Shown: one piece after another, positions 17,557 through 34,202 of the stretch
How positions within the stretch are numbered: position 1 is the stretch's first letter
How the letters are laid out: the number at the start of each line of letters is the position of its first letter
Assembly: GCA_016191815.1 (NCBI GenBank)
Contig: JACPVI010000054.1
Span: forward strand, 1-42,252
Source of the DNA: Myxococcales bacterium
GTDB taxonomy: Bacteria; Myxococcota; Myxococcia; Myxococcales; Myxococcaceae
Direction of reading: 5' to 3'
DNA: 42,252 bases
The notes under the pieces: model-generated
What the model saw: the letters and a program-made list of their open reading frames with translations, nothing else
Told to the model about the DNA's origin: nothing
Database searches by the model: none
Made by a program: the position numbers and the translations under genes

Positions 17557-17577
17557 GAGTAGTGAAATCCACTACTC
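17557..17577 (+). promoter_or_regulatory. Palindrome over the antitoxin start codon (putative operator)
   Basis: A perfect 8-bp inverted repeat, GAGTAGTG / CACTACTC, with a 5-bp spacer. The GTG start of the antitoxin (17562-17564) lies inside the left arm. Toxin-antitoxin operons are normally repressed by their own antitoxin bound to palindromes at the promoter, so this is a good operator candidate. In mRNA it would also form a hairpin hiding the start codon. Confidence 0.5.
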
Positions 17578-17900
17578 GGAAGAGGGCCGCTGGCGCCCGC
17601 AGGCTAGAGCCCGGACCGTTGAGTGTCCCGCTCACCTCCGAGCTTCGCAGGCGCCTTGCCGCCCAGGCCAGCAAGCGAAAGCTGAAGACGGCCACCGCCG
17701 CCCGCGTCTTCCTCGATGAGCACCTCGGCGAGCTGGAGGACGCGATCGAGCTCAGCCGCTCCGAGGAGTGGCAACGCGCCCAGGCCTGGGCGACCTGGGA
17801 GAAGATTGATGCCGGCGACCGCCGGGAGGTGCCGCTCGACCGGATCCGAGCGCGCTTCAAGCGGGCGAAGGCGCGCTTGAACCCTCAAGCCAAGCGATGA
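17562..17900 (+). CDS. Antitoxin of a ParD/ParE-type toxin-antitoxin pair
   Basis: 112 residues. A basic N-terminus leads to VPLTSELRRRLAAQASKRK, resembling a ribbon-helix-helix DNA-binding segment (about residues 22-60). A helical C-terminus (FLDEHLGELEDAIELSRSEE) would wrap the toxin. The stop overlaps the toxin start in ATGA, the usual order and coupling for antitoxin before toxin. The addiction-module role is inferred from order, size and the partner. The protein is longer than many ParD antitoxins, with about 20 extra residues at each end. Confidence 0.72.
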   Translation: MKSTTRKRAAGARRLEPGPLSVPLTSELRRRLAAQASKRKLKTATAARVFLDEHLGELEDAIELSRSEEWQRAQAWATWEKIDAGDRREVPLDRIRARFKRAKARLNPQAKR

Positions 17901-18223
17901 GCAGCCGCCGGGTTCGCCTCCACCCCGACTTCGAGGCGGATGTGCGCGCCCAGATCGACTGGCTGGTCACCCATCGACAAGCACGCTGGCTCGACAATCT
18001 GGACCAGGGTCTGCAGGGCGTTGTCGAGCTGCTGTCCGCGTTCCCGGGAGCCGGCGCAGTCGTGGGTCGACGAGAAGGCCGGCAGCTCCGGCGGCTGCTT
18101 TTCCGGAAGGGCCCCTACCTCGTTTGGTACGTGGTAGACGGAAACGACGTATGGCTCCTGCGGCTCTTCCACGCGCGGCAGCGGCGGCCGGCTCCGAATC
18201 CGGCCAGATGGTTCAGGCGGTAA
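17897..18223 (+). CDS. RelE/ParE-superfamily toxin
   Basis: 108 residues. RVRLHPDFEADVRAQIDWL is the ParE-type N-terminal strand-helix, followed by two helices and the C-terminal beta strands with RQLRRLLFRKGPYLVWYVV and DDVWLLRLFHARQ-like pattern (here GNDVWLLRLFHARQ). The R/K-rich RRLLFRKGPY and terminal HARQRR are the usual surface of the toxin. ParE members poison gyrase and RelE members cut mRNA; the HARQ ending favours the ParE-like group but the target cannot be assigned. Translationally coupled to the antitoxin. Confidence 0.8.
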   Translation: MSSRRVRLHPDFEADVRAQIDWLVTHRQARWLDNLDQGLQGVVELLSAFPGAGAVVGRREGRQLRRLLFRKGPYLVWYVVDGNDVWLLRLFHARQRRPAPNPARWFRR

Positions 18224-19493: not shown

Positions 19494-19828
19494 GTGCTCT
19501 TCTGGCAGGACGTGCGCAGCTGCGTGAAGTGCCACCCCGACACCAAGGCGGCCTGCGGGGGGGCCAACCCTCCCTGCGGCTTGGGCCAGGTGTGCAGTGC
19601 TGGAAAGTGCGTGAACGAGGCGTGGAAGAAGCGTCGACGGAAGTGTGCCTGTCGTGCCACAACACCGAGCCGGCCGCTGGCCACGCCGCGATCAACACCT
19701 TTCAAGCCTCGGGGACGGCGAACGAGACCTGCCAGGTGTGCCACGGCGAGAAGGCGGAGTTCTCAGTGGAGAAGGCGCACGACATCAGCTCACCGTACGT
19801 CCCGCCGTACCCGCGTACGGAGCTGTAG
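19494..19828 (+). pseudogene. Truncated, frameshifted multihaem c-type cytochrome remnant (OmcA/MtrC-like C-terminus)
   Basis: From a GTG at 19494, one frame reads RSCVKCHPDTKAACGG, then PCGLGQVCSAGKCVNEAW. Near 19620-19640 the cytochrome-like sequence jumps to another frame: STEVCLSCHNTEPAAGHAAIN, ETCQVCHGEKAEF and finally YVPPYPRTEL. Three CXXCH sites are seen in total, but no signal peptide. The order of the motifs and the final xHxxxxPYVPPYPRE-like tail resemble the C-terminus of OmcA/MtrC-family decahaem surface cytochromes as I know them. The front two-thirds is missing and is replaced by the divergent radical SAM gene. A sequencing error could explain the shift but not the truncation. 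Confidence 0.6.
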
Positions 19829-19848: not shown

Positions 19849-20238
19849 ATGAACCACACTCACCATCCAAGGATCGTCATCTGGCTGTCCGCTCTGGCCC
19901 TGGCGTTCGCGGGGGTCCTCTTCGCCGGCGGGGCTGCCCACGCCCAGCCGAAGGACAAGAAGCTCGATCGGCTGTGGAAGGCGAAGTGCTCCTCTTGCCA
20001 CGGGATGGACGGCAAGGGCGACACCGAGAAGGGCAAGAAGATGGCCATCGAGGACATGACCTCGCCGGAGTTCCAGAAGAAGTACACGGACGAGCAGATG
20101 AAGAAGGCCATCCTCGAGGGCGTGAAGGAGGTCCGCGACGGGGTCAAGAAGGAGATGGACCCCTTGAAGGACGAGCTGAAGCCCGATCAGGTGGACGCGT
20201 TGGTGGGGTACGTACGCTCCCTCGGCGCACAGAAATGA
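19849..20238 (+). CDS. Periplasmic monohaem cytochrome c
   Basis: 129 residues. Signal peptide cleaved after about AAHAQ (residue 28). One haem site, CSSCHGMDGKG, then KGKKMAIEDMTS with a Met that could be the distal ligand, and a C-terminal helix with VDALVGYVRSLG, typical of class I (cytochrome cbb3-subunit-like) folds. The ATG at 19849 has GGGAGGAG about 8 nt upstream. Its stop overlaps the next start (ATGA). It probably shuttles electrons in the periplasm to or from the neighbouring complexes. Confidence 0.88.
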   Translation: MNHTHHPRIVIWLSALALAFAGVLFAGGAAHAQPKDKKLDRLWKAKCSSCHGMDGKGDTEKGKKMAIEDMTSPEFQKKYTDEQMKKAILEGVKEVRDGVKKEMDPLKDELKPDQVDALVGYVRSLGAQK

Positions 20239-21512
20239 GCCGCCCGGCCCCGCGAATCAGCAGGCGGGGCGGGGCGGTGGCGACGGCCTTCTTCGCTTCT
20301 TCCTTGGCGCTTCCCGCCAGGGCGGACGTGGAGGCCACCTCCACCACCGTCCTCACCGCGCGTCCCGAAATCCGCGCCGGCCAGGCCTACGGCGCGCTCC
20401 CGCTCATCGAGCTCTTGGGGCTCTCCGCCTCCGGGTTCGACAACCCGTGGGTGACGGATGCGCGAGTGCGGGTTTCGGCCTGGGGCGAGCTTCGCCCCTC
20501 GGAGCTGCCCGCCCGCGGCTCAGCCTCCGGCGATGTGGATCTCGCTTTCGCCGAGGGGAAGTTGTTCGAAAAGCGCCTGCGCCTCACCCTGGGCCGGCAG
20601 TTCGTCTTCGGAGGCGGGGCCCGCTCGGCTCATCTCGATGGCGCCTCCGGCGAGGTGCGCCTTTCCAGCGGGCTCGGGCTCCTGGCCTACGGAGGGGCCA
20701 CGGTGGTGCCGAGGTTTGCCGTCCGGCGGGGCGACGCCCTGGCCGGCGCCCGGGCTTTCTGGTCGCCCAGCTTCGATACCGAGTTGGGGGTCTCCTTCAT
20801 CCAGGTGCTGGAGCGCGGGCTCTCGGCGCGGCAGGACCTCGGCGTCGACGGCCGCTGGGAGCCGAGCCGAGATCTGACCGTCGCCGGTCACGCGCTCTAT
20901 AGCCTGGCCGAGCGGCGCCTGGCCGAGCTGGACCTCGGCCCGCGCTGGCAGATCGGAGAGGGCGTCGAAGTCTCCGCCCTCTACCGGCGCACCTCGCCGG
21001 ATCTCTTCCTGCCGCGTAGCTCGATCTTCTCGGTCTTCGCCGAGCAGAGCCGCGACGAAGCGGGGGCGGGAATCCTGTGGCACCCCAGGCCGAGGCTCGG
21101 CCTCTATGCCGACTGGCGCGCGGTGTGGGTGGGCGAGGGCCTGGGGACCGACGCCGGCGGGCAGCTCACCTTGGGGCTGGGACCTCTGTCGAGGACGCGC
21201 CTCTCCGCGCAGGCGCGCGTGCTCCAGATTCCGGGCTCGGGCTACGTCCGCGCCCGCGCCACCGCGAGCCACCGGCTCCCCTCGGACCTTTCCCTCGCCC
21301 TGGACGCCGATTGGTTCCTGCTCGACCGGCCGGTGAACGGCGAGCGGATGTCGATCGCCGCGGCCGCCGTGGCCAGCTGGCCCTTCGCCCCCGAGTGGCT
21401 GGCCGCCCTGAGCGTGGGGGCCGGCAGCACTCCCACTTTCCAGAGCCGCTTCGAGGTCCTCGCCAAGGTGGGGTACCGCTTCTCTACCCGGGCAAAGGAG
21501 ACCGCCAGATGA
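20235..21512 (+). CDS. Outer-membrane beta-barrel protein (porin of a putative porin-cytochrome conduit)
   Basis: 425 residues. Signal peptide (AVATAFFASSLALPARA). The rest is alternating beta strands with aromatic girdles (VRVSAWGELR, LRLTLGRQFVFGG, LGLYADWRAVWVG, LTLGLGPL) and a terminal strand VLAKVGYRFSTRA. No haem site and no repeats. The pattern is that of a barrel of perhaps 18-22 strands. Coupled by ATGA to both the cytochrome upstream and the 13-haem cytochrome downstream, as barrels are in Mtr/Pcc-type conduits. A conduit function is inferred from context; sequence similarity to MtrB or OmbB cannot be judged by eye. Confidence 0.72.
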   Translation: MSRPAPRISRRGGAVATAFFASSLALPARADVEATSTTVLTARPEIRAGQAYGALPLIELLGLSASGFDNPWVTDARVRVSAWGELRPSELPARGSASGDVDLAFAEGKLFEKRLRLTLGRQFVFGGGARSAHLDGASGEVRLSSGLGLLAYGGATVVPRFAVRRGDALAGARAFWSPSFDTELGVSFIQVLERGLSARQDLGVDGRWEPSRDLTVAGHALYSLAERRLAELDLGPRWQIGEGVEVSALYRRTSPDLFLPRSSIFSVFAEQSRDEAGAGILWHPRPRLGLYADWRAVWVGEGLGTDAGGQLTLGLGPLSRTRLSAQARVLQIPGSGYVRARATASHRLPSDLSLALDADWFLLDRPVNGERMSIAAAAVASWPFAPEWLAALSVGAGSTPTFQSRFEVLAKVGYRFSTRAKETAR

Positions 21513-22603
21513 GCCCGGCTCCCATCCGGCGCCGGCGGTTCCTCGGGCGCTCCCGGTTTGTGGTGATCTCGGCGGCGTTCCTCTCGGTGGCCTGCGCCTC
21601 GCTGTGGGCCAAGCTCACCTCCTCGCGCGACCGCATCAAGTCGCCGCACGCGCGCCACATCGAGGCCAAGGTGGACTGCCTCACCTGCCATGAGGAGATC
21701 TTCGAGGCGGCGGCGCTCACCGAGCGGCACCTCCCCAAGGAGAAGAAGTGTCTGGAGTGCCACCGCGAGGAGAAGGAGAAGGGAAACTGCGGCTACTGCC
21801 ACACCCGGCCGGCCGAGCCGGAGAGCTACGCCCCCCGCGGGCGCACCTTGGTGATGTCGCACCAGAAGCACCTCGAGCTGGAGGAGGTCCAGGAAGACTG
21901 CCGCAAGTGCCACCTGGAGCTGCCCGAGCCCGACCGGGCCATTCTTCCGCCGCCGATGGACCGCTGCCGGGGCTGCCACCGGCACCAGGAGGAATACGCC
22001 GGCGGGGAGTGCGCCGCTTGCCACCTGGACCTCGGCCGCTTCCCGCTCCGCCCGGTGTCGGTGTACTCGCACCGGCTGGACTACGGGCGAAACCACCGGC
22101 AGGACGCGCGCTCGCGCACCGCCGCCTGCGCCACCTGCCACGAGCAGGCCTTCTGCAAAGACTGCCATTCCCAGACGGTGGCGGCGCGGGTGGAGGAGCT
22201 GCTCCCGGGGCGGGTGGACCGCGCCTTCATCCACCGCGGCGACTACGAGGGGCGCCACTCGGTGGAGGCCCGCGCCGACGGCGCCCTCTGCCAGAGGTGC
22301 CACGGGCTCAGCTTCTGCCATGGCTGCCACACCGCCAGGGGACTCACCCCCGAGGGAGCGCGGCCGCTCAATCCGCACCCCTCGGGATTCGGAGATCCCG
22401 CCTCGGCCTCCTTCCACGGGCCGGCGGCGCGGAGGGACATCGTGCGGTGCGCCTCCTGCCACGAGCAGGGAGCCGCTTCGAACTGCGTCGACTGCCACCG
22501 GGTCGGCGGGATCGGCGGGAACCCGCACCCGGCCTCGTGGCTGTTGCGGCACGACAAAGAGGAGATCCAGCGGAATGCGATGTGCCTTTCTTGCCACCCG
22601 TGA
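21509..22603 (+). CDS. 13-haem c-type cytochrome with N-terminal anchor
   Basis: 364 residues with thirteen CXXCH sites: CLTCH (residue 57), CLECH, CGYCH, CRKCH, CRGCH, CAACH, CATCH, CKDCH, CQRCH, CHGCH, CASCH, CVDCH and the terminal CLSCH. A basic N-terminus and one hydrophobic segment (about residues 17-33) give a signal anchor or uncleaved signal. One haem per about 24 residues after the anchor matches wire-like cytochromes such as MtrA. Right after the barrel gene (ATGA overlap), it is the best candidate for the haem wire threaded through, or docked to, that barrel. It lies in the periplasm. Confidence 0.88.
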   Translation: MSPAPIRRRRFLGRSRFVVISAAFLSVACASLWAKLTSSRDRIKSPHARHIEAKVDCLTCHEEIFEAAALTERHLPKEKKCLECHREEKEKGNCGYCHTRPAEPESYAPRGRTLVMSHQKHLELEEVQEDCRKCHLELPEPDRAILPPPMDRCRGCHRHQEEYAGGECAACHLDLGRFPLRPVSVYSHRLDYGRNHRQDARSRTAACATCHEQAFCKDCHSQTVAARVEELLPGRVDRAFIHRGDYEGRHSVEARADGALCQRCHGLSFCHGCHTARGLTPEGARPLNPHPSGFGDPASASFHGPAARRDIVRCASCHEQGAASNCVDCHRVGGIGGNPHPASWLLRHDKEEIQRNAMCLSCHP

Positions 22604-22711
22604 TCGCGGTGCGCGCTTGCATCGATTCTGGCTCCGAGCCCGCTCAGCCCGAGCGCAGTCGAGGGCCGACCTCAGCGCGGGAGATCACCGCCGTATGAGG
22701 AGCTCCGCCCG

Positions 22712-23242
22712 ATGACCTTCCCGCGCACGCGCCGCATCGCTCCCTACGCAGCCTTCGCGGCGGCGGCGGTGCTCGCAGCCGTGGTCGGCGACGCCGCCCG
22801 GTCGCGCACTGCGCAGCCGTTCCCGCACAACCACGCGGTGCACGTGCAGGGCAAGGTGGACTGCCTGCAGTGCCACGCCGGGGTGCTGGATGCGGCGGAG
22901 GACCGCTTCCCCACGTTGGCCACTTGTCTCAAGTGCCACAAGGACCCGCCGGGCGACAACCCGGGGAAGAAGCTCCTCGCCGAGCTGGCGGAGAAGAAGG
23001 CGAAGCTCGAGTGGATCTCGCACGTCCGCGAGCCGGACCACGTCTTCTTCTCCCACGAGCGGCACGTGGACGTGGCGGAGCTGGAGTGCACCATCTGCCA
23101 CGGCCCGATCGCCAAGGCGAAGGCTCCTCTGGGTGGGCTCGAGCCGATGGAGATGGACCGGTGCATGGGCTGCCACGGCGAGCACCGGGACAGACCGGCC
23201 GCGGCGCGGGCCGAGCTGGACTGCGCTTCCTGTCACAGGTGA
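22712..23242 (+). CDS. Pentahaem c-type cytochrome (electron-transfer subunit of the NrfD complex)
   Basis: 176 residues with five CXXCH sites: CLQCH (about residue 51), CLKCH, CTICH, CMGCH and the terminal CASCH. FPHNHAVHVQGKVDC and FFSHERHVDVAELEC are the His-containing stretches before haems seen in cytochrome c3/c7-type folds. An N-terminal hydrophobic segment (AAFAAAAVLAAVVGDAA) exports or anchors it. GAGGAG lies about 9 nt before the ATG. Placement just before a Mo-family, Fe-S and NrfD set matches the cytochrome subunit of ActA (five haems) or QrcA (six). A 108-bp gap separates it from the 13-haem gene, the only real gap in the operon. Confidence 0.88.
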   Translation: MTFPRTRRIAPYAAFAAAAVLAAVVGDAARSRTAQPFPHNHAVHVQGKVDCLQCHAGVLDAAEDRFPTLATCLKCHKDPPGDNPGKKLLAELAEKKAKLEWISHVREPDHVFFSHERHVDVAELECTICHGPIAKAKAPLGGLEPMEMDRCMGCHGEHRDRPAAARAELDCASCHR

Positions 23243-23249
23243 CGGAGAG

Positions 23250-25301
23250 ATGAGCGACGCGAGCCGCAGAGACTTCCTCAAGCTCACCGTGGTCGCCGGC
23301 GCGGCCGCGGGCCAGGCGGCCTGCTCGGAGCTGGTGCCCCAGGAGCGGATTCGCCCGAGGCCGGGGCCGGAGGAGCGGATCAAGACCGCCTGTGGCGCCT
23401 GCTCCGCGGGATGCGGGCTCACGGTGCGGAAGGTGGGGGAGAACGCGGTCCAGCTCGAAGGGTTGCCGGGCCACCCGCTCAACGGCGGGGGCCTCTGCCC
23501 GCGCGGGGTGGCCGAGATCCAGAACCTCTATCACCCGGAGCGGCTTAGGGGCCCGATGCGGGCGGCGGGACAGCGGGGCTCCGGCCGCTTCCAGCCGATC
23601 GACTGGGACACGGCGCTCGGCACGGTGGCCGAGAAGGCCAAGGGAGGCGGAGTGCTCCTCGGGCTGGGAGACGTCTCGGCGGTGGAGCGGATCCTCCTCG
23701 CCCGCATCGCCTCGGCCTCGGGCTGGAAGCTCGTCCAGGCGGCGACGCCGCTCGGCCAGCCGCCTCTGGAGGCGCTCCGGGGGGCGCTGGGGAGCGACGA
23801 GTACTCCTTCGACGTGGCGCATTCCGACTGCGTCCTCGCGCTGGGCCACGACTTCCTGCAGGCCTCGCCGTCGCTCGCCGAGGCCCAGCGGGCCGCCCTG
23901 GCGGTCCGCACCGCCCGGCCCGTGCGCGGAAGGATGATCTACGCCGGGCCCCGGCTCTCGGTGACCGCCATGTACGCCGATCGGTGGATCCCGGTCGCTC
24001 CCGGGGGCCTTGCCCACCTCGCCCTGTCGGTGGCTCACGCCATCCTGGCCGACCAGGCGCGGGCGGCGCTGGAACGCTTCGAGGCGGTCTCCGCCCGCGC
24101 CACCGACTTCCTCGCCTTCCGCGAGCTGGTCACCCAGCCGGCGCTCTCGCCTTCCAAGGTGGGCCCCGAGCTGGGGATCCCCGAGCGCGTCATCCTCGAG
24201 CTGGCCTCGGAGCTCTTGGCCTGGCCGCGGCCGCTGGTGATGGTGGACCGCGCGGACCATGACCTCCAGCTCGCCGGGATGGCGCTCAACGTCCTCCTCG
24301 GCGCGGTGGACAGGGAGGGAGGGGTGGTGAGCCGCGCCCCGCTCAACCTGCCCGCCGAGCTGCGCGCTCCCCAAGTCGAGACCTCGGACCTCCCGAAGAG
24401 CGACCAGGCGCAAGCGGTGCTGCTCTACGGGGCCAACCCACTGTACCTGTGGCCCAGCGGCGAGTGGTCTGCCGCCCTCGAGCGGGCCGCCTTCGTGGCG
24501 AGCTTTGGCCCGTTCGCCGACGAGAGCGCCGCGGAGGCCGAGATCCTCTTGCCCACCTCCACCGCGCTCGAGTCCCGGCAGCTCTCGCTGGGCCATGCGA
24601 TGGACGGGGCGGCCCTTTTGACCGCCGGGCCCGCGGCGGTGGAGAAGCTCTACGACACCCTCGAGGGGCCGGAGGCGCTGATCCGCCTTGCCCAGAAGCT
24701 CGGCGTGGAGCTGCCCTGGAAGGACGCAGGGGAGTACCTCTCGGCTTTCGCCGACGCGGTCGGCGCCTCAGAGCTCTTGGAAGAGGGCGGCTTCAAGGTG
24801 CTGGCCACCTCGCGCGTCCACCCGGCCGAAGCGGAGACCCCTCCCACCGGCGCCCCGGTCCGCCTGGGGGCAGAGGAGCTGCGAGGGGTGAAGGCGGCCG
24901 GAGGCGAAGGGCTCTCGCTCGAGATCTACGTGCCCAGCGCCTTCAACGGCGGGCTCGGGGCGCACCTGCCGTACCTGCACGGCATCGCGGGCACCGAAGG
25001 GCGCGAGGCGTTCAGGACCCTGGTGGTGTTGCACCCGAAGGCCGCGGCGGAGGCGGAGGTGAAGGAGGCGGCGCCGGTCTACGTGCAGTCTCCGCGAGGC
25101 CGGATCGCGGGCATCGCGCGCCTCTCCGACGCCATCCGGCCCGATGCGGTCGCCATCGCGCTCGGGCTCGGCAGGCGGGCGCTCGGCCATTGGGCGGAGG
25201 GGCACGGGGCCAACCCGCTCACCTTGCTCTCGGAGGACTCCCGGGGCTACGGCGGGGTGGGGTGGAGATGCTGCCGGGTGAAGGTGGGGAGGTTGGCATG
25301 A
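23250..25301 (+). CDS. Tat-exported molybdopterin-oxidoreductase-family subunit
   Basis: 683 residues. SRRDFLK (residues 5-11) followed by a hydrophobic stretch is a Tat signal, so it folds before export. C48, C51, C55 and C83 (CGACSAGCG...GLCPRG) bind an N-terminal [4Fe-4S] cluster. GRMIYAGPRLSVTAMYADRW and LLYGANPLY are family segments of Mo-bisPGD enzymes. The protein is short for the family, and the part between the cluster and GRMIYAG looks reduced, with no clear Mo-ligand loop. It resembles the QrcB and ActB subunits, which keep the fold but lack the cofactor; this is inference. Overlaps the next gene by ATGA. Confidence 0.85.
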   Translation: MSDASRRDFLKLTVVAGAAAGQAACSELVPQERIRPRPGPEERIKTACGACSAGCGLTVRKVGENAVQLEGLPGHPLNGGGLCPRGVAEIQNLYHPERLRGPMRAAGQRGSGRFQPIDWDTALGTVAEKAKGGGVLLGLGDVSAVERILLARIASASGWKLVQAATPLGQPPLEALRGALGSDEYSFDVAHSDCVLALGHDFLQASPSLAEAQRAALAVRTARPVRGRMIYAGPRLSVTAMYADRWIPVAPGGLAHLALSVAHAILADQARAALERFEAVSARATDFLAFRELVTQPALSPSKVGPELGIPERVILELASELLAWPRPLVMVDRADHDLQLAGMALNVLLGAVDREGGVVSRAPLNLPAELRAPQVETSDLPKSDQAQAVLLYGANPLYLWPSGEWSAALERAAFVASFGPFADESAAEAEILLPTSTALESRQLSLGHAMDGAALLTAGPAAVEKLYDTLEGPEALIRLAQKLGVELPWKDAGEYLSAFADAVGASELLEEGGFKVLATSRVHPAEAETPPTGAPVRLGAEELRGVKAAGGEGLSLEIYVPSAFNGGLGAHLPYLHGIAGTEGREAFRTLVVLHPKAAAEAEVKEAAPVYVQSPRGRIAGIARLSDAIRPDAVAIALGLGRRALGHWAEGHGANPLTLLSEDSRGYGGVGWRCCRVKVGRLA

Positions 25302-25981
25302 GCCGCTGGGGCATGAGGATCGATCTCGACCGGTGCACCGCCTGCGGCGCCTGCGCGGTGGCCTGCGCCCAGGAGAACAACGTTCCTCTCGGGCAACCGG
25401 CGAAGGCCTTCCAGCACCTGGTGCGCTGGCTGGAGCTCTTGCCGGTCAAGCGCGGCGAGTACCCGCGCGCCGACGTGCGAGTGTTCCCGATGCCCTGCCA
25501 GCACTGCGACAAGCCGCCCTGCACCAAGGTGTGTCCGGTCTACGCCACCTACCGGAGCCCCGAGGGGCTGGTGCCGCAGATCTATCCTCAGTGCATCGGC
25601 TGCCGGTACTGCGTCAACGCCTGCCCCTACACCTGCAAGTACTACAACTGGGAAGATCCCCAGTGGCCCGAGCCGATGGAGCGAGGCCTCAACCCGGACG
25701 TGTCGATCCGGACCAGGGGCGTCACCGAGAAGTGCAACTTCTGCCTGCACCGGCTGCAGAAGGCGCGCGACGCGGCCGCCATCGACGGCAAGGAGCTGGA
25801 CCCCAAGGACTACCGGCCGGCCTGCCAGGTGATCTGCCCCACCGAGGCGATCTTCCTCGGGGACATCGATGACCCGAGCGGCGACGTGGCCTCGGCCCGG
25901 GAGGACCCCAGGGCGATGCGCTTGCTCGAAGAGCTGGGGACGGAGCCGAAGATCACCTACCTCAAGGAGCGAGGGCCGTGA
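25298..25981 (+). CDS. Four-cluster ferredoxin-like Fe-S subunit
   Basis: 227 residues. The cysteines group as for four [4Fe-4S] clusters: CTACGACAVAC (from residue 13), CQHCDKPPCTKVC, CIGCRYCVNACPYTC, and CNFCLH with a later PACQVIC. This is the electron-transfer subunit of complexes built on NrfD membrane proteins. No Tat signal, so it would be exported with the Tat-dependent catalytic subunit or face the same compartment. ATGA overlap upstream, GTGA downstream. It would link the NrfD subunit to the Mo-family subunit and the pentahaem cytochrome. Confidence 0.95.
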   Translation: MSRWGMRIDLDRCTACGACAVACAQENNVPLGQPAKAFQHLVRWLELLPVKRGEYPRADVRVFPMPCQHCDKPPCTKVCPVYATYRSPEGLVPQIYPQCIGCRYCVNACPYTCKYYNWEDPQWPEPMERGLNPDVSIRTRGVTEKCNFCLHRLQKARDAAAIDGKELDPKDYRPACQVICPTEAIFLGDIDDPSGDVASAREDPRAMRLLEELGTEPKITYLKERGP

Positions 25982-27582
25982 GGCTGCGCGGGAGAGACTG
26001 GGCGTTCTACGTCCAGGCCGCCGGGCTGGTCGGCCTGTGGGGGCTGACCGGCATCGTGGTGTGGTGGTTCGTCTGGCGGGCGTATGACCTCCACCGTTTC
26101 GCCGACCAGTGGACGCCGGCGGTCGTGGTGGGCGCCGGCGTCTGTGCCTGCCTGGCGCTGTTCGCCTCGGTGATGACCTACGTCTTCCTCGCGGTGGGGG
26201 GGAGATCCGAAGGCAAGCCCCCGGATCTGCCGATCGACGAGGTGGAGCGGAAGTTGACCCACGGGGTCTTGCGTCCCTGGAGCTGGAAGGGCCGGGCGGT
26301 GGCGGCGGCGCTGTCGGTGGTGGTGGCCTGGGCGCTCTACTGTTGGTGGTACCAGCTCTCCAACGGCCTGGTGGTGACGGGACTGTCGAGGCCGGTGTTC
26401 TGGGCGCTCTACATCACCAACTTCGTCTTCTTCATCGGGATCTCCTACGGCGGCACCTTGGTCTCGGCCATCCTGCGCATCGCCAAGGGAGAGTGGCGCC
26501 GCCCCGTCACCCGCGCCGCCGAGGCGGTGGCGGTGCTGGTGCTGATGATGGGCGGCTGGAACATCTTCCTCGACCTGGGGCGCCCGGACCGGGTGGAGAA
26601 GCTGTTCGACCGGGGCCGACTGGAATCGCCGCTGGAGTGGGACGTGGTGGCGATCTCCACCTACGTGATCGGCTGCGTGCTCTATCTCTACCTGCCGCTC
26701 ATCCCCGACCTGGGGATGCTCCGGAACCGGGTGAAGGGCTGGCGGAAGCCCATCTACCACCTGTTCTCCTTCGGGTGGACCGGGGCCGAGGCCCAGAAGC
26801 AAGCGCTCGAGCGGGCCATCTCGGTGACCGCGGTGATGATCGTCCCGATCGCCGTCTCGGTGCACAGCGTGGTGGGCTGGGTGTTCGCCCTCACCGTGCA
26901 GCCGATGTGGCACTCCACCATCCTCGGGCCATACTTCGTCCTGGGAGCGATGTTCTCCGGAGTGGCGGCGCTGATCCTCGTCCTCGCGGTGCTGCGCCGG
27001 GCGATGCGGCTTCAAGACTTCATCCGCCCGGTGCAGTTCGACTACCTGGGCATGCTCCTGTTGGTCCTCGCCTGCCTGTGGCTGTACTTCACCATCTCCG
27101 AGAACTTGACCGTCTACTGGGGCGCCGAGCACGCGGAGCTGGCGGTGCTGGTGGAGAAGCTCTCCGGCCGCTTCGCCCCGCTCTACTGGGTGATGCTGAT
27201 CGGCTGCTTCTTCCTCCCGCTGCTCCTCCTCTCGCGCAAGCGCACCCGGACCGTCGCCGGGACGGTGATCGCCTCCGCCGGGGTGGTGATCGGGATGTGG
27301 ATCGAGCGGTACACCATCGTGGTGCCCACCATGGAGGCGCCGCGCCTGCCGGTGGACGCTCCCCACTACTCCCCAAGCTGGGTCGAGCTGTCGCTGATGG
27401 CCGGCTGCTTCGCGATGTTCGGGCTGATGTACATGCTCTTCACCCGGCTGTTTCCGGTGGTCTCCCTCTGGGAGATGCGCGAGGGACGGGAAGTCTCCGC
27501 CGGCGAGGCCGCGGAGCGCATCCGCGCCTACTTCCCCTTTGGGGCCCCACAAGGCCCGGCGACTGATGGAGGCCGCCAATGA
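25978..27582 (+). CDS. NrfD/PsrC-family membrane subunit (quinone-interacting)
   Basis: 534 residues with about ten hydrophobic helices, for example FYVQAAGLVGLWGLTGIVVW, VVVGAGVCACLALFASVMTY, and MLLLVLACLWLYFTI. NIFLDLGRPDR matches the LGRP(E/D)R segment of the family. Members oxidise or reduce quinones at the membrane without haem. It is longer than classical NrfD (about 320-400) and nearer the length of ActC-like subunits. GTG start overlaps the preceding TGA. The pairing with the Fe-S subunit makes a quinone-linked module the likely function; direction of electron flow cannot be told. Confidence 0.92.
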   Translation: MRLRGRDWAFYVQAAGLVGLWGLTGIVVWWFVWRAYDLHRFADQWTPAVVVGAGVCACLALFASVMTYVFLAVGGRSEGKPPDLPIDEVERKLTHGVLRPWSWKGRAVAAALSVVVAWALYCWWYQLSNGLVVTGLSRPVFWALYITNFVFFIGISYGGTLVSAILRIAKGEWRRPVTRAAEAVAVLVLMMGGWNIFLDLGRPDRVEKLFDRGRLESPLEWDVVAISTYVIGCVLYLYLPLIPDLGMLRNRVKGWRKPIYHLFSFGWTGAEAQKQALERAISVTAVMIVPIAVSVHSVVGWVFALTVQPMWHSTILGPYFVLGAMFSGVAALILVLAVLRRAMRLQDFIRPVQFDYLGMLLLVLACLWLYFTISENLTVYWGAEHAELAVLVEKLSGRFAPLYWVMLIGCFFLPLLLLSRKRTRTVAGTVIASAGVVIGMWIERYTIVVPTMEAPRLPVDAPHYSPSWVELSLMAGCFAMFGLMYMLFTRLFPVVSLWEMREGREVSAGEAAERIRAYFPFGAPQGPATDGGRQ

Positions 27583-27809
27583 GGCGAGAAGGACCCTCGT
27601 TCCTCACCTGGCTGTGGGGGCTGTGCGCGCACCCGCCTTCACGGGCCCGCTGCTCCTCTTGCGGAGCCCAAGCCGCCGGTGGGGAAGCGGTGCGCCGGCT
27701 CGAGGCCGAAGGGCTTTCGGCGCTGGCCGAGCGCAGCCGGCTGTGTGCCGACTGCCGGAGGCTCGCACTGGCGGTGGCCGCGGCACAAAGGCTGGAGGGC
27801 GGGTCATGA
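27579..27809 (+). CDS. Small double-CxxC protein of the cytochrome operon
   Basis: 76 residues with RCSSCGAQ (about residue 24) and LCADCRRL (about residue 58), two CxxC pairs without the His needed for haem. No signal peptide is evident. It overlaps the NrfD gene by ATGA and the next cytochrome by ATGA, so it is translated with both. This fixed position argues for a role in complex assembly, metal or cluster handling, or redox sensing, none of it shown by the sequence. I recognise no family. Confidence 0.75.
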   Translation: MRREGPSFLTWLWGLCAHPPSRARCSSCGAQAAGGEAVRRLEAEGLSALAERSRLCADCRRLALAVAAAQRLEGGS

Positions 27810-29440
27810 AGCGCTCGGCATGCTGGGCGGCATCGGCGATCGCCTTGGTCGCCTGCGGGGTGGTGCGCGAGGAGCGCTTCGGCGAGCCGAGGTGTCCGGA
27901 GTTCTCCACCGCAATCCAGCCTATCCTCGGCGAGCGCTGCGCCTCCTGCCACTCTGGGCCGGCCCCGGCGGCGGGCTACTCGGTGGAGGGCCACCTCTCG
28001 GTGCTCTCCCGGCGAGACGACGGGAGCGCGCGGTTGGTTCCAGGGGATGCTCAGTCCGCCTTCCCGCGGGCGGTGCGCGGCGAGCTTCCCGATCACTCCG
28101 CGGTGCCGGAGCCGCAGTCGTCAGAGCTTCGCCGGTGGGCCGTCTCCTGTCGGGCGGCGCCTTCGGATTTCAAGGTCCACTTGAACGGGTGGATGAGCCC
28201 TCCGGACCCGGAGGAGTTCCACGGCCGGGTGCTCCGCCGGCAGGGCTACGCGCTTTTGGGGTGCCGCGATTGCCACGGGGCGGATCTCAAGGGCGGCCAG
28301 GTGCACATCGGCTGCGACCGCTGCCACCCCGGCGGCCCGTTGGACTGCGGCGTCTGCCACGGAGACTCCACCTCGGCGGCGCCGCCGAGGGATCTCTCCG
28401 GTGCGAGAGCGACCACCTCGATCGGGGTCGGCGCGCACCGGCGACACGTGACCGACGGTCCCAATCACCGGGCCTTCGACTGCACCACCTGCCACGAGAA
28501 GCCGCAGGCCGCCGAGGACGAGGGCCACACTCTCCGCGGCGGTCAGGTCGATCCGGCGCCCGCGGAGGTCAAGCTCCAGGCGACCGCCGGCGCCGAGGCG
28601 AGGTGGGATCGCGCGTCGGCGACCTGCTCGGGGACGTACTGCCACTCTCCGAGGCCGGCAGATGGCCGCGCCACCAACCCTTCGCCCAGGTGGACCTCGG
28701 TGGGCGAAGGCCAGGCGGCGTGCGGGGCCTGCCACGGGAATCCTCCGGAGGGACACACCGACGCCGCCTGCGAGCGCTGCCACCGGAGGGCGTTCGCCGC
28801 AGGCCGCCCGATCTTGGGAATGCACCTCAACGGGACGGTGGAGGCCGGCGATGCCCAGGGCACTTGCTCCGGTTGCCATGGAGACGCTTCGAGCCCGGCC
28901 CCGCCGCCGGACGTGCGAGGGGAAACCTCGGAGAGCTTCGCCACCGTGGGAGCCCACCGCTCGCACCTCGAGGCGAGGCATTCGCTGCGCGGCCCGATCG
29001 AGTGCGGGGAGTGCCACCTCGTGCCTTTGGAGCTGAAGTCCCCGGGACACATCGACTCTGCTGCCCCGGCGGAGGTCTTCCCTCCCGGCGCCGGCTCTCT
29101 CGCCCGGGCGGACAGCGCGAGCCCCAGCTACGACTCGGCGACCGCGAGCTGCTCTTCGGTGTACTGCCACGGCGGCGGAACCCGCCACGGGAAGGACACC
29201 GCGCCGACCAAGCTCCCCTCGCCGGTGTGGACCGCCGGCGTCTCCCAGGCGGTGTGCGGCGCCTGCCACGGAATCCCGCCGGAGGACGGGTCCACCTTCC
29301 ACCCGGGGAAGAGGCTCGGCGACTGCGTCAACTGCCACTCCTCCAGCGTCACCGCGGGCGGTTCGATCAAGGTCGCGCGCGACGCGAACGGAAACCTCAC
29401 CTCCACTCACCTCGACGGCCAGGTCCAGACCAACCCTTGA
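27806..29440 (+). CDS. 13-haem lipoprotein cytochrome with CX2CH and CX4CH sites
   Basis: 544 residues. The signal ends in ALVAC (lipobox). Eleven CXXCH sites (CASCH, CRDCH, CDRCH, CGVCH, CTTCH, CGACH, CERCH, CSGCH, CGECH, CGACH, CVNCH) and two CX4CH sites (CSGTYCH, CSSVYCH). Each CX4CH starts a similar block: a W, then ACGACHG(N/I)PPE, then another haem, so a module of about 200 residues is duplicated. This CX4CH/CX2CH arrangement is known in Geobacter and Anaeromyxobacter surface cytochromes. A lipid anchor and final position in the operon make it the likely outer-surface partner of the conduit. It ends 1 bp before the first 60-bp repeat. Confidence 0.9.
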   Translation: MKRSACWAASAIALVACGVVREERFGEPRCPEFSTAIQPILGERCASCHSGPAPAAGYSVEGHLSVLSRRDDGSARLVPGDAQSAFPRAVRGELPDHSAVPEPQSSELRRWAVSCRAAPSDFKVHLNGWMSPPDPEEFHGRVLRRQGYALLGCRDCHGADLKGGQVHIGCDRCHPGGPLDCGVCHGDSTSAAPPRDLSGARATTSIGVGAHRRHVTDGPNHRAFDCTTCHEKPQAAEDEGHTLRGGQVDPAPAEVKLQATAGAEARWDRASATCSGTYCHSPRPADGRATNPSPRWTSVGEGQAACGACHGNPPEGHTDAACERCHRRAFAAGRPILGMHLNGTVEAGDAQGTCSGCHGDASSPAPPPDVRGETSESFATVGAHRSHLEARHSLRGPIECGECHLVPLELKSPGHIDSAAPAEVFPPGAGSLARADSASPSYDSATASCSSVYCHGGGTRHGKDTAPTKLPSPVWTAGVSQAVCGACHGIPPEDGSTFHPGKRLGDCVNCHSSSVTAGGSIKVARDANGNLTSTHLDGQVQTNP

Positions 29441-29441
29441 A

Positions 29442-29501
29442 GAGCCCGCAGTCCTAAAGGCGACGCGGGCTTCGACCTTGGCCCAATGGCGGGGGGTGAC
29501 G
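29442..29501 (+). repeat. 60-bp direct repeat, left copy
   Basis: Identical over 60 bp to 38422-38481, in the same orientation; identity stops at mismatches on both sides. It starts 1 bp after the stop of the 13-haem lipoprotein gene. Inside is an inverted repeat AGCCCGC / GCGGGCT (15-nt loop), which could be a recombinase site arm or the cytochrome operon terminator. Confidence 0.85.
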
Positions 29502-29668
29502 CCGGGAGCTCCGCCTCGGAGAGCACCCGCTCGGGCAGCGGCTCGCCGAGCAATCCGATCTTCCATATCGCGACACGGTCCTGTCCTGCGGTCAACGTGG
29601 GCGCGACCGCGGGCGCGACAACCCACGGCCGGCGCGGCGACCGGCCGCCGGGCTATGCTCGGCCGCGC

Positions 29669-31747
29669 ATGTTGCGGGCGTTCGGCCTCGTCTTCCTCGC
29701 CGGCTGCTCGGCCGGTCCAGCCACCTCGTTCGAGGCCTACCGCGGCCCCGAGGGTCCCGGCTACTACTGCCCGCCCCGCTTCGAGGTGGACGCCGAGCGG
29801 CGCGGCTGCCTGCCGGTGTTGCCCGCCTCGCCCTGCCCCGCCGGCACGATGCCGGTGCTCGGCGAGGCGACCTGCGCGCCGGTGGGCGTGCGCGCCTGCC
29901 CCGCGTGGGCCGAGACGGATCCGTCCGGCTGGGGTTGCCGCGAGAAGCTCCCGGTGTCCGACTGCGCGGGCGCCACCATGGAGAAGCTGGGCAGCACCGC
30001 GTGCGTCCCGATCGGCGACTGCAACCAGCCCTTCCCACCGGCGGGCGCCACGCTGTTCGTCGACGACAGCTACCCGGCCGGCCAGCTCGACGCCACGCAC
30101 TTCGCCACCATCGCCGCCGCGCTCGCCGCCGCCACCGCGGGAGCCGTCATCGCCGTCGAGGCCGGCACCTACCCGGAGTCGCTCTTCCCCCGAGTGCCCC
30201 TGCGCATCGCGGGCCGCTGCGCTGAGCGGGTGAGCCTGACCGGCCGCGGCGGGCCCGAGCCGGGCATCCAGCCGTTCCGGAACGTCGGCGTGGTGGAGAT
30301 CTCCGGCATGACCATCTCCGGCCAGCGCGGCGGAGTGGTCGCGCTCGAGGGCAACGACGTCCGGGTGGCCGACTGCCTGCTCACGCAGAACCGCGACTCG
30401 GGGCTGGTGGTGGTCGGCGGGAAGGCCACGGTGCGGAGCAGCCGCATCTCCGACAGCCTCCCGGCGGCGAACGGAGATCTCGGCTTCGGCGTGTGGGCCT
30501 CGCTGGGCGGCCGCGCGGAGCTCGACGGGGTCGCGGTGACCGGCAACGTGAAGAACGGCGTGGTGATCAAAGACGCCAACAGCACCGGCCGCGTCTCGGG
30601 CTCGGTCGTGCGCAACACCCGGCTGGATCCGACCGGCCACGCCGGCAAGGGAGTGGAGGCCGGGTTCGGCGGCAGCGTCGAGGTGGCCGGCTCGGCGCTG
30701 GTGTCGAACCACTCGGCGAACTTCGCGGTGATGAGCGCCTCGCGCGGCACGGTGGCCGACTCGGTGCTGCGCGACGGCCGCGCCGACCAACTCGGCCGCT
30801 TCGGCCACGGCGTGGAGGTCGACAGCGGCTCCACGGTGACCATCGAGCGCTCCACCCTCTCCGAGAACCGCGAGTGGGCGCTGGTGGCGCTGCAGCAGAG
30901 CACCTCGGCCAAGCTGATCGACACCACCGTGCGCGGCCCGGCGGCGAGCACCGGGTTGGCGGGCGGGCTGACCGCGCAATACGGCGCCGCGCTCGAGCTG
31001 ACCGGCTCGGCGGTGGTGGAGGCCGGGACGGTCGGGCTGCGACTGGAGGAGTCGCGCGGATCGATGACGCGGTCTTTGGTGCGCGGCACGCGGTACCAGA
31101 CCGCCGTCAACGCCGGCCTGGGCCAGGGCGTGATCGCCGGCTTCGCCTCGTCGTTCTCGGCGACCGAGGCGGCGCTGCTCGACAACCAGAGCGCCGGGCT
31201 GGTGGCGGGCGGCCCGGGCGCCGCTCCGAGCGAGGCGTTGCTGCAATACGTCGTCGCCGCCGGCACGCGCGCCGACTCGAACGGCGACTTCGGCTACGGC
31301 GTCGAGGCCTCCGACGGAGCGCTGCTCGAGCTTCACTACTCGGTGGCGCTGGCCAACGCCGGCGCGGGCGTGGTGATCGGGCTGACCGGCACGCGGGCGA
31401 CGATTCGCGAGGTGGTGTCGCTGGGCCATGGGGGCGCGCGCAGCGGCCACGGCCTGGTCTGCGCCGACGGCGCCACCGCGCGGGTGCTCGGCGGAACGTT
31501 CCGCGACAACTCGGGAATCGGGCTGGCGTTCGGCCGGTGCAGCGGGACCGTCGAGCGCGGCTTCGTCGCGGCGAACGGGGTCGGCATCCACGCGCAGGGC
31601 GGCACGGTGATCGAAGAGGTCGAGGCCGTCGGCGACCCGCTGCCGAACGTGGTGCGCGTCTCCAGCGCCACCAGGTTCCTCGACAACCAATCGCGCACCG
31701 GCACCGGAACGGTGACCTTGCCGAGCACCCACGGCCTGCAGCGCTGA
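29669..31747 (+). CDS. Lipoprotein with parallel beta-helix (pectate-lyase-like) repeats
   Basis: 692 residues from the ATG at 29669, chosen because LVFLAGC then gives a proper lipobox (Cys about residue 13). Residues 30-125 are Cys-rich with several CPAG/CVPIG type loops. From about residue 130 (LFVDDSYPAG...FATIAAALAAA...AGTYPESL) to the end there are short strand-turn repeats such as VRVADCLLTQNRDSGLVVV, the pattern of right-handed parallel beta-helices. These serve as polysaccharide lyases or adhesins; no catalytic cluster can be identified. Isolated gene, first in the repeat-bounded segment. Confidence 0.8.
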   Translation: MLRAFGLVFLAGCSAGPATSFEAYRGPEGPGYYCPPRFEVDAERRGCLPVLPASPCPAGTMPVLGEATCAPVGVRACPAWAETDPSGWGCREKLPVSDCAGATMEKLGSTACVPIGDCNQPFPPAGATLFVDDSYPAGQLDATHFATIAAALAAATAGAVIAVEAGTYPESLFPRVPLRIAGRCAERVSLTGRGGPEPGIQPFRNVGVVEISGMTISGQRGGVVALEGNDVRVADCLLTQNRDSGLVVVGGKATVRSSRISDSLPAANGDLGFGVWASLGGRAELDGVAVTGNVKNGVVIKDANSTGRVSGSVVRNTRLDPTGHAGKGVEAGFGGSVEVAGSALVSNHSANFAVMSASRGTVADSVLRDGRADQLGRFGHGVEVDSGSTVTIERSTLSENREWALVALQQSTSAKLIDTTVRGPAASTGLAGGLTAQYGAALELTGSAVVEAGTVGLRLEESRGSMTRSLVRGTRYQTAVNAGLGQGVIAGFASSFSATEAALLDNQSAGLVAGGPGAAPSEALLQYVVAAGTRADSNGDFGYGVEASDGALLELHYSVALANAGAGVVIGLTGTRATIREVVSLGHGGARSGHGLVCADGATARVLGGTFRDNSGIGLAFGRCSGTVERGFVAANGVGIHAQGGTVIEEVEAVGDPLPNVVRVSSATRFLDNQSRTGTGTVTLPSTHGLQR

Positions 31748-32322: not shown

Positions 32323-32814
32323 ATGCAGAATATCAGCCCAAAAGATGATTTGATCCGCGACGTGCGGCGTTTCAAGGAGCTGATGATCGGCTTCGGGCGC
32401 CGGCGCTCGCTGCGCGACCCGGTCGCCGCCGCGGTCGAGGAGCTCGAGCTGAGCCCGCCGCAGATCCACACGCTCCTGTGGGTCGGCCACGAGGGCCAGC
32501 TCACCATGGGCGAGGTCGCCCAGCGCCTCGGCGTCAGCGAGAAGACGGTCACCGGCATCATCGACCGCCTCGAACGGCGCCACCTGGTCAGCCGCGAGCG
32601 CGGCGATGCCGACCGCCGCGTGGTGCGCTGCAAACTCACCAAGACCGGTGAGAAGGTCTACCACCACCTCGACGAGCTCACTTCGCGCGCCATGGGCCAG
32701 TTCCTCGGCCTGCTCGACCGCGAGGATCGTCAGCTGCTGTTCCGGCTCCTCGAGAAGGTGCAGCGGAAGATCGAAAGCGCCACCGCCGCGGCACGAAAGG
32801 CGGCCCAGCAATGA
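32323..32814 (+). CDS. MarR-family transcriptional regulator
   Basis: 163 residues. The winged helix runs about residues 45-110: LSPPQIHTLLWVGHEGQLTM, then VAQRLGVSEKTVTGIIDRLE as the helix-turn-helix and recognition helix, then RRHLVSRERGDADRRVVRC as the wing with the conserved DxR. Helical ends form the dimer interface. The TGA overlaps the start of the outer-membrane efflux gene (ATGA), so it is the first gene of the efflux operon and most likely its autoregulated repressor. TTGACC at 32282-32287 with 17 bp to a weak TTATCG box could be the promoter. Confidence 0.9.
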   Translation: MQNISPKDDLIRDVRRFKELMIGFGRRRSLRDPVAAAVEELELSPPQIHTLLWVGHEGQLTMGEVAQRLGVSEKTVTGIIDRLERRHLVSRERGDADRRVVRCKLTKTGEKVYHHLDELTSRAMGQFLGLLDREDRQLLFRLLEKVQRKIESATAAARKAAQQ

Positions 32815-34202
32815 TCCCGATGATGGTGGTGGCCGCGGCGCTCGCGGCGCCGGGCGTGCTCACGCTCGAGCAGGCGCAGCGTGAGGCGAACCAGCGCAAC
32901 GCCGACCTCGGCGCCGCCCGGGCGCGGCTCGATCAAGCCCGCGAGCTGTCCAGCAAGGCTTGGGCGGGCTACCTGCCGCAGCTCACCGCCGGCGGCGCGT
33001 ATACCTACAACTCGGTCGAGGCGAAGATCGCGCTGCCCACCGGCTACTACATCCGCAACGTCTACGTGCCCCAGGGGCCCGAGTTCGACCCGTCGCGCGA
33101 GCCGGGCATCGACAACCCGCCCGGCGCGCCCACTCCGTACCTCATGGTGCCGTCCGGCCTCATGGAGGCGGTGATCCAGAAGCAGCACCAGTTCGCCGGC
33201 CAGGTGCAGCTCGGCCAGGCGGTGGTGGCGCCCGCTTTGTGGTTCGCCATCGCCAATGCCGGCCGCGCCGAGGACCTCTCCGAGCTGTCCATCGAGGCCG
33301 CGCGCCGCGAGGTGCTCTTCGGCGCCACCCGGCTCTACTACGGCGCCGTCGGGCTCGAGGAGGCCACCGCGCTGCAGGAGCGGTTGCTCCAGGCCAACGC
33401 CGAGCACGAGAAGGACGCCAAGGTGCGCTTCGAGGCCGGCGCGGCGCCGAAGATCGCCTGGCTGCGCGCGCAGATCGAACGCGCCCGCTCGGAGCAGGAC
33501 GTCAAGCGCACCCGCATCGCCTTCGAGTCGGCCAAGAGCGCGCTGGCCGCCCTGCTCGACCGCGACCCCGACTTCGAGGTCGAGCGGCCCGAGCCTCCCG
33601 AGCTGTCCGCGCCCGTCGAGCGCGCTCCGCTCGACGAGCGCCCCGACGTGCTCGCCGCGCGCCAGGCGGTGGAGCTGGCCGAGGGCAACCGCAGGATGGC
33701 CTGGGCCAAGTACGCGCCCAACCTCGGGCTGTTCGCGCGCTACCAGGCGGCCAACGCCAAGGGCTTCACCGGCGAGTACGGCGCGTACGTCGCCGGGCTC
33801 AGCCTCAACTGGACGTTGTGGGACGGCGGACTGCGCGAGGCCGAGCTGCGCGAAGCCGACGCCAAGGTGGCCGAGGCCCGGGAGTCGTTGCGCGCGGTGG
33901 AGGCGAGGGCGAAGGACGAGGTGCGCCGCGCCCTGCTCGATCTGGAAAGCGCCCGCGCCAACCGCGTCAAGGCCGAGGAGCAGGCCAAGCTGGCGCGCGA
34001 GAACGCCGCGCTGGTGAAGGCCAACTTCGAGGCGGGCGCGGCCACCTACCTCGAGGTCACCGACGCCAACTCGGCGCTGCTCGGCGCGGAGCTGGCGGGC
34101 ATCTCCGAATCGCTCGGCACGGAATTGGCCGCCCTCCAGTTGCTCAAGGCCGCCGGCCGGTTCGACCCGCTGCGGGAATCGCCCCGAGGAGCACGACCAT
34201 GA
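32811..34202 (+). CDS. TolC-family outer-membrane efflux protein
   Basis: 463 residues. Short signal peptide (MIPMMVVAAALAAPG). Two repeats of the family: LTLEQAQREANQRNADLGAA near the start and ERPDVLAARQAVELAEGNRR midway, each leading to long helices. Between them are strand-forming segments with PQLTAGGAYTYNS and APNLGLFARYQ, the barrel strands. C-terminal EAGAATYLEVTDANSALL is typical. It forms a trimeric exit duct for the tripartite pump encoded with it. It starts inside the marR stop codon and its own stop overlaps the next gene. Confidence 0.92.
   Translation: MIPMMVVAAALAAPGVLTLEQAQREANQRNADLGAARARLDQARELSSKAWAGYLPQLTAGGAYTYNSVEAKIALPTGYYIRNVYVPQGPEFDPSREPGIDNPPGAPTPYLMVPSGLMEAVIQKQHQFAGQVQLGQAVVAPALWFAIANAGRAEDLSELSIEAARREVLFGATRLYYGAVGLEEATALQERLLQANAEHEKDAKVRFEAGAAPKIAWLRAQIERARSEQDVKRTRIAFESAKSALAALLDRDPDFEVERPEPPELSAPVERAPLDERPDVLAARQAVELAEGNRRMAWAKYAPNLGLFARYQAANAKGFTGEYGAYVAGLSLNWTLWDGGLREAELREADAKVAEARESLRAVEARAKDEVRRALLDLESARANRVKAEEQAKLARENAALVKANFEAGAATYLEVTDANSALLGAELAGISESLGTELAALQLLKAAGRFDPLRESPRGARP

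Follow-up and report, generated by a model that had tools for sequence, protein, structure and literature searches.

A nine-gene operon of a Myxococcales genome, at positions 19849-29440 of a 42,252-nucleotide stretch (the window; contig C55, genome of 6.77 Mb), encodes side by side an outer-membrane electron conduit of the Pcc type and an inner-membrane quinone module with an NrfD-family membrane subunit. Judged by gene content and homology, the operon is probably an outward electron route, in which menaquinol oxidation feeds the conduit for extracellular respiration. Both halves are of known kinds; their pairing, which appears to be undescribed, recurs in several relatives and is well supported as a genomic pattern.

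All nine genes (Table 1) lie on the + strand and six of the eight junctions are 4-bp overlaps (ATGA/GTGA). The other two are gaps, of 108 bp between the genes of the 13-haem cytochrome mhc13 and the pentahaem cytochrome mhc5, and of 7 bp between mhc5 and the Mo-fold subunit. We infer co-transcription from the gene overlaps alone. A promoter scan found no promoter, and the seven terminator-like sites (shuffled mean 3.2, standard deviation 1.9) are all outside the 108-bp gap. The operon is not a product of chance, because homologues abound for every gene except the small one, whose single counterpart comes directly after NrfD in another genome. Haem-c sites amount to 1+13+5+13, that is 32. The Fe-S protein has 17 cysteines, with space for four 4Fe-4S clusters, while the Mo-fold protein keeps the four-Cys motif of one more, making five Fe-S clusters a fair prediction. 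An earlier sequence-only reading had proposed this one-direction operon with mostly overlapping junctions, 32 haems and five clusters; every gene was recovered at its place and the motif counts agree. Its view of one coupled unit, joining an outer-membrane conduit to an NrfD complex of quinone-reactive type, is upheld by gene content, overlaps and recurrence.

Table 1. Genes of the operon and the cytochrome remnant preceding it (positions in the window).
Feature	Coordinates	Strand	Evidence
c1, monohaem cytochrome c, 129 aa, signal peptide	19849..20238	+	1 CxxCH; PF00034 5e-10, PF13442 1e-8
Barrel, outer-membrane, porin-like, 425 aa	20235..21512	+	AlphaFold model; homologues
mhc13, 13-haem c7-type cytochrome, 364 aa	21509..22603	+	13 CxxCH; PF14522
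mhc5, pentahaem QrcA/ActA-like cytochrome, 176 aa	22712..23242	+	5 CxxCH; NF041781 5e-21; 6f0k_A 3e-14
Mo-fold QrcB-like subunit, 683 aa, twin-arginine translocation (TAT) signal, one 4Fe-4S motif	23250..25301	+	NF041783 4e-78
QrcC-like Fe-S protein, 227 aa	25298..25981	+	NF041782 3e-83; tree: with G029, G107, G195
NrfD-family membrane subunit, 534 aa, ~11 transmembrane segments	25978..27582	+	PF03916 1e-35; 6btm_C 3e-61, 6lod_C 1e-60
Small protein, 76 aa, two CxxC	27579..27809	+	homologue after NrfD in G029
Lipoprotein, 13-haem, 544 aa	27806..29440	+	11 CxxCH + 2 CxxxxCH; TIGR01904 3e-27
Decahaem OmcA/MtrC-family remnant, C-terminal ~105 residues, two frames	19494..19828	+	blastp homology

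The assignment of the outer-membrane half relies on genomic context and homology. Homologues of the barrel occur in 56 of 195 Myxococcota genomes and those of mhc13 in 82 of 195, some of the latter weak and partial. Neighbourhoods were compared at 80 loci from named genomes, 72 of which are testable, their contig extending far enough. The barrel is immediately upstream of mhc13 on the same strand in 70 of the 72, and a lipoprotein homologue is near the pair in 59 (35 upstream, 24 downstream). Homologues of c1 adjoin conduits at loci L047, L048, L053, L058 and L059, and in many Myxococcota the barrel/mhc13 pair belongs to a wider cluster that also holds a decahaem cytochrome, c1 and the lipoprotein and whose gene order varies. 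Homologues of the pair are present in Anaeromyxobacter soli SG29 (L132: barrel 33%, cytochrome 45%) and A. terrae SG22 (L139). The described two-gene Pcc clusters of Anaeromyxobacter comprise a porin and a 12-haem cytochrome of 338-344 aa and form phylogenetic group IV (Shi et al. 2014, PMC4245776). With a porin-like gene directly before a large multihaem cytochrome gene, as in those clusters (12-14 haems, about 340 aa), the barrel/mhc13 pair is concluded to be an Anaeromyxobacter-type Pcc group IV conduit, the clusters of that paper being compared by description. The published clusters have two genes only, whereas the operon adds the 13-haem lipoprotein, the monohaem cytochrome and the quinone module. 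To note, a conduit-linked lipoprotein homologue at L165:5326-8484 is 1052 aa long and bears 35 haem motifs (33+2), and similar giants are found in L135 and L164.

The barrel matches no Pfam or NCBIfam family; its AlphaFold model (predicted local distance difference test score, pLDDT, 88) displays 22 long strands without a plug domain. Its backbone radius is estimated from strand-number arithmetic, with no docked model, at ~20 Å, as compared to ~23 Å for the 26-stranded MtrB, and therefore a haem wire is not excluded by size. Foldseek and VIA-align rank MtrB about level with ushers and with barrels of the OprD and TonB types (for MtrB, 6r2q_B, Z is 16.3 over 334 residues, with many other large barrels at similar Z). 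Since many large barrels score alike, fold comparison cannot tell a conduit from another large barrel; the absence of MtrB from the Foldseek best 50 was not used as evidence. Among the Pfam and NCBIfam models, none of MtrB matches the barrel; for mhc13 the best matches are to c7 families, and no model of MtrA/DmsE is among its matches. The AlphaFold model of mhc13 is poor (pLDDT 63, predicted template modelling score 0.38); the Cys/His columns of its haem sites are mostly invariant (alignment A1).

The quinone module resembles two known complexes: Qrc, which reduces menaquinone with electrons from cytochrome, and alternative complex III (ACIII), which oxidises quinol. QrcA, QrcB and QrcC are the best family matches of mhc5, the Mo-fold and the Fe-S proteins, and the module shares with Qrc the same four subunit kinds, Mo-fold and Fe-S proteins being separate. 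However, its A subunit carries five haems instead of six and its NrfD subunit is ActC-like, not QrcD-like; all four subunits miss the Qrc equivalog cut-offs of NCBIfam (bits/cut-off: QrcA 75/180, QrcB 263/440, QrcC 279/400, QrcD 31/570). ActC of ACIII is the nearest solved relative of the NrfD subunit (~1e-61), and a pentahaem A subunit is likewise common to the module and ACIII, whereas the ActB counterpart is split into two proteins in the operon. No ActD, ActE or ActF was recognised within 19849-29440. The same genome harbors three ACIII-type operons (contigs C28, C25 and C88) with fused ActB of 930-994 aa, and the NrfD tree places the window protein with those of relatives G029, G107 and G195 (99/99), apart from the ActC proteins of its own genome. 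By the tests made, the quinone set lies between Qrc and ACIII, related to both and identical in kind to neither.

In an approximate alignment to PsrA and relatives, the Mo-fold protein has Ala/Gly, and no Cys, Ser or Asp, at the position of the Mo ligand, which fits an electron-transfer subunit and not a catalyst. Its candidacy as a Mo enzyme was rejected on this missing ligand; the rejection is not extended to all relatives, since in some of them an Asp, Ser or Cys occupies that column or adjoins it. A Qrc-like set in G165 (L092:5178-10619), not associated with this conduit, includes a Mo-fold protein that carries a Cys close to the site of the Mo ligand and may be a genuine Mo enzyme. The small protein has a 40% homologue in G029 (L053, from 4685), in the same place after NrfD and with both CxxC kept.

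The two modules are found together in further Myxococcota. Genes in lower-GC loci were rechecked by means of open frames and tblastn. In relative G106 the genes are spread over three contigs: c1-barrel is on the first, barrel-mhc13-mhc5-Mo-FeS-NrfD on another, and the NrfD end followed by the lipoprotein on the last; if the contig ends are joined, this would be the order of the window. Its NrfD belongs to a different clade from that of the window, the pairing occurring in two distinct NrfD clades. Other collinear orders, each in one direction, are mhc5-Mo-FeS-NrfD-tetrahaem-c1-decahaem-lipoprotein-barrel-mhc13 in G195 and that of G010, where a lipoprotein-like open reading frame (ORF), the barrel and mhc13 come before a 30-haem protein, which is followed by an mhc5-like ORF, Mo, FeS and three NrfD genes. 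These three NrfD genes, clustered by the conduit and the 30-haem cytochrome (L093:1752-7751), represent an unusual multiplication of the membrane subunit. In G029 both modules lie within 8 kb on opposite strands, and the quinone set is followed by Rieske and cytochrome b genes; with a hexahaem cytochrome, these may form a second quinol enzyme (L130:11337-14547). The sequence-only reading would have been refuted had homologues of the barrel and the NrfD set always occurred apart; they co-occur in G106, G195, G010 and G029.

Of 32 genomes, partly hand-picked after neighbourhoods were seen, seven (G000, G069, G106, G029, G163, G010 and G192) have an NrfD gene no more than 10 kb from mhc13, for 0.44 expected from random placement, ~16 times expectation; if every genome in which mhc13 has a strong match is counted (slightly fewer than 60), the same seven compare with ~0.8 expected by arithmetic. 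Other myxobacterial conduits adjoin DsrOP-like, NrfD-like or NapC/NrfH-like membrane modules. In conduit-bearing Myxococcota, L072, L119, L148, L165, L184, L186, L190 and L191 show modules of tri/tetrahaem, DsrO-like and DsrP/NrfD-like proteins, which mostly adjoin the conduit and in some cases are transcribed divergently; they are apparently a second common quinone partner.

The proposed route can be traced gene by gene. The module made of mhc5, the Mo-fold, Fe-S and NrfD subunits and the small CxxC protein would act as a Qrc/ACIII-like quinol:cytochrome oxidoreductase of the inner membrane. Menaquinol would be oxidised at the NrfD subunit, and electrons would reach pentahaem mhc5, the putative exit of the quinone module, by way of the Fe-S clusters in the QrcC-like and QrcB-like subunits. 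Handover from mhc5 to mhc13 across the periplasm would most likely be ensured by c1 as a monohaem shuttle. In the outer-membrane module, formed by the barrel, mhc13 and the lipoprotein, mhc13 would thread the 22-strand barrel as a wire and deliver electrons to the 13-haem lipoprotein, the candidate surface-side component, and from there to a mineral, a humic substance or another surface cytochrome. Path, direction, topology and acceptor are all inferred. Queries taken from the conduit of G140 bear on alternative feeders: in searches without a positive control in the same run, an ImcH-like NapC/NrfH-domain protein returned one weak partial match in this genome and a CbcL-like multihaem membrane protein none. 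The lack of a full ImcH- or CbcL-like relative leaves room for the Qrc/ACIII-like complex as conduit feeder.

A surface decahaem cytochrome is present in the operon cluster only as a frameshifted C-terminal fragment of the OmcA/MtrC family, which the sequence-only reading had overlooked, no intact ten-haem member having been found there. Homology covers 19494-19643 in one frame and 19625-19816 in the other, with best blastp matches (51-62% identity) to full-length decahaem proteins adjoining the conduit in relatives. Intact counterparts of 790-900 aa stand beside the conduit in, for example, L052, L117 and L051; the L052 protein scores 198 bits with TIGR03507, slightly below the cut-off of 209.3, also matches PF22113, and recovers the remnant at 19494-19828 when used as a query. 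Homology starts abruptly at 19494, adjoining an oppositely oriented radical-SAM gene. Two further decahaem-type genes, longer relatives, are located on contigs C29 and C35, distant from any conduit. Barring an assembly fault, the decahaem surface cytochrome typical of this site has been lost or rearranged here, and the description of the conduit as complete in the sequence-only reading is doubtful.

This remnant is one of several points that weigh against an outward route: the operon may be decaying, or may depend on the C29/C35 cytochromes. The G106 order depends on joining contig ends, the proximity count on a partly hand-picked set, and Qrc-like sets have no adjacent conduit in G107, where the set is on another contig, and in G165. 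Moreover, Qrc works in the opposite sense, with menaquinone as the acceptor, and the direction therefore cannot be derived from homology. Electrons could flow inward, the conduit taking them from Fe(II), a partner cell or a mineral and the Qrc-like complex reducing menaquinone, the role that Qrc has in sulfate reducers and in syntrophic partners of these; we regard this as unlikely though credible. The Mo-fold and Fe-S subunits do score best against QrcB and QrcC of a menaquinone reductase, bacterial partners of anaerobic methanotrophic archaea (ANME) pair Qrc with electron-accepting conduits (PMC10553843), and one of the three ACIII operons adjoins apparent oxidase genes, O2 respiration being possible. 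On the other hand, the membrane subunit resembles ActC, of a quinol oxidase, and reaches only 31 bits against QrcD, and Anaeromyxobacter, which has the same conduit, is a known Fe(III) reducer. A Mo-dependent extracellular or periplasmic reductase of the DmsEFAB kind, in place of a quinol oxidase, is barely credible: the Mo-fold domain matches molybdopterin families, but the Mo ligand is replaced by Ala/Gly and the best family, QrcB, is itself a molybdopterin-binding-like subunit.

How closely the two modules belong together is a separate matter. That two unrelated respiratory units are adjacent by chance, or by a general clustering of cytochrome genes, is highly improbable. The 108-bp gap between mhc13 and mhc5, the separate contigs of quinone set and conduit in G107 and the rearrangement just upstream, signalled by the decahaem remnant, would agree with it; yet the quinone set is inserted inside the conduit cluster, between mhc13 and the lipoprotein, in both the window and G106, the combination recurs with differing orders in further genomes, and the excess of proximity is marked. 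At the other extreme, the sequence-only reading had suggested one physical supercomplex from the quinone pool to the cell surface, an idea in keeping with translationally coupled genes and with the repeated collinearity of conduit and quinone set. We consider it very unlikely. In relatives, this conduit has different and unrelated quinone modules as neighbours (DsrOP-like, NapC-like, Rieske/cytochrome b), a pattern more readily explained by exchangeable partners than by a fixed complex; the soluble monohaem cytochrome of the operon suggests a periplasmic shuttle instead, and the periplasm is wide relative to a 5-haem and a 13-haem protein. A related speculation, that in some Myxococcota the Qrc-like complex and the Pcc conduit co-assemble into an envelope-spanning machine, with the inner complex docking on the 13-haem wire as a new type of respiratory complex, is quite unlikely too.

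Conduits encoded together with an inner-membrane quinol enzyme have precedents, and the earlier statement that known families split these jobs was too strong. R. ferrireducens has mtrABC, cymA and mtrH in one cluster (PMC6295460); the mtoABCD and PCC3/PCC4 conduit clusters have their own quinone enzyme (PMC5566968); and Geobacter extHIJKLMNOPQS combines a conduit with Rieske and cytochrome b (PMC5877670). In MBNT15, a part in iron reduction has been proposed for ACIII-like and Fe-S/NrfD complexes (PMC9386147). The described full-envelope clusters share with the window a porin, multihaem cytochromes and an inner-membrane quinone enzyme in one gene cluster, their porins being compared without established homology to the window barrel. 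Their quinone enzymes differ: NapC/CymA, CbcL/MtrH, a b-type inner-membrane protein or Rieske/cytochrome b, versus the Mo-fold/Fe-S/NrfD set. No paper placing a module of Qrc/NrfD type within a Myxococcota Pcc cluster was found in the literature searched, whose coverage largely excludes subscription papers. Because conduit and inner-membrane enzyme are often encoded at separate places, which of them belong together usually has to be guessed; in this genome the pairing can be read from the operon itself. Quinone modules swapped beside one conserved Myxococcota conduit constitute a natural series on conduit-enzyme matching, and the operon suggests that extracellular respiration extends beyond Anaeromyxobacter to other Myxococcaceae-related bacteria.

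Upstream of the decahaem remnant, two small ORFs (17562-18223), the last of them encoding a ParE-type toxin (PF05016), precede the opposite-strand radical-SAM gene. Directly 3' of the operon lies the gene of a large right-handed β-helix protein (29486-31747), beyond which are encoded a MarR regulator and a resistance-nodulation-division (RND) efflux system (32350-38484).

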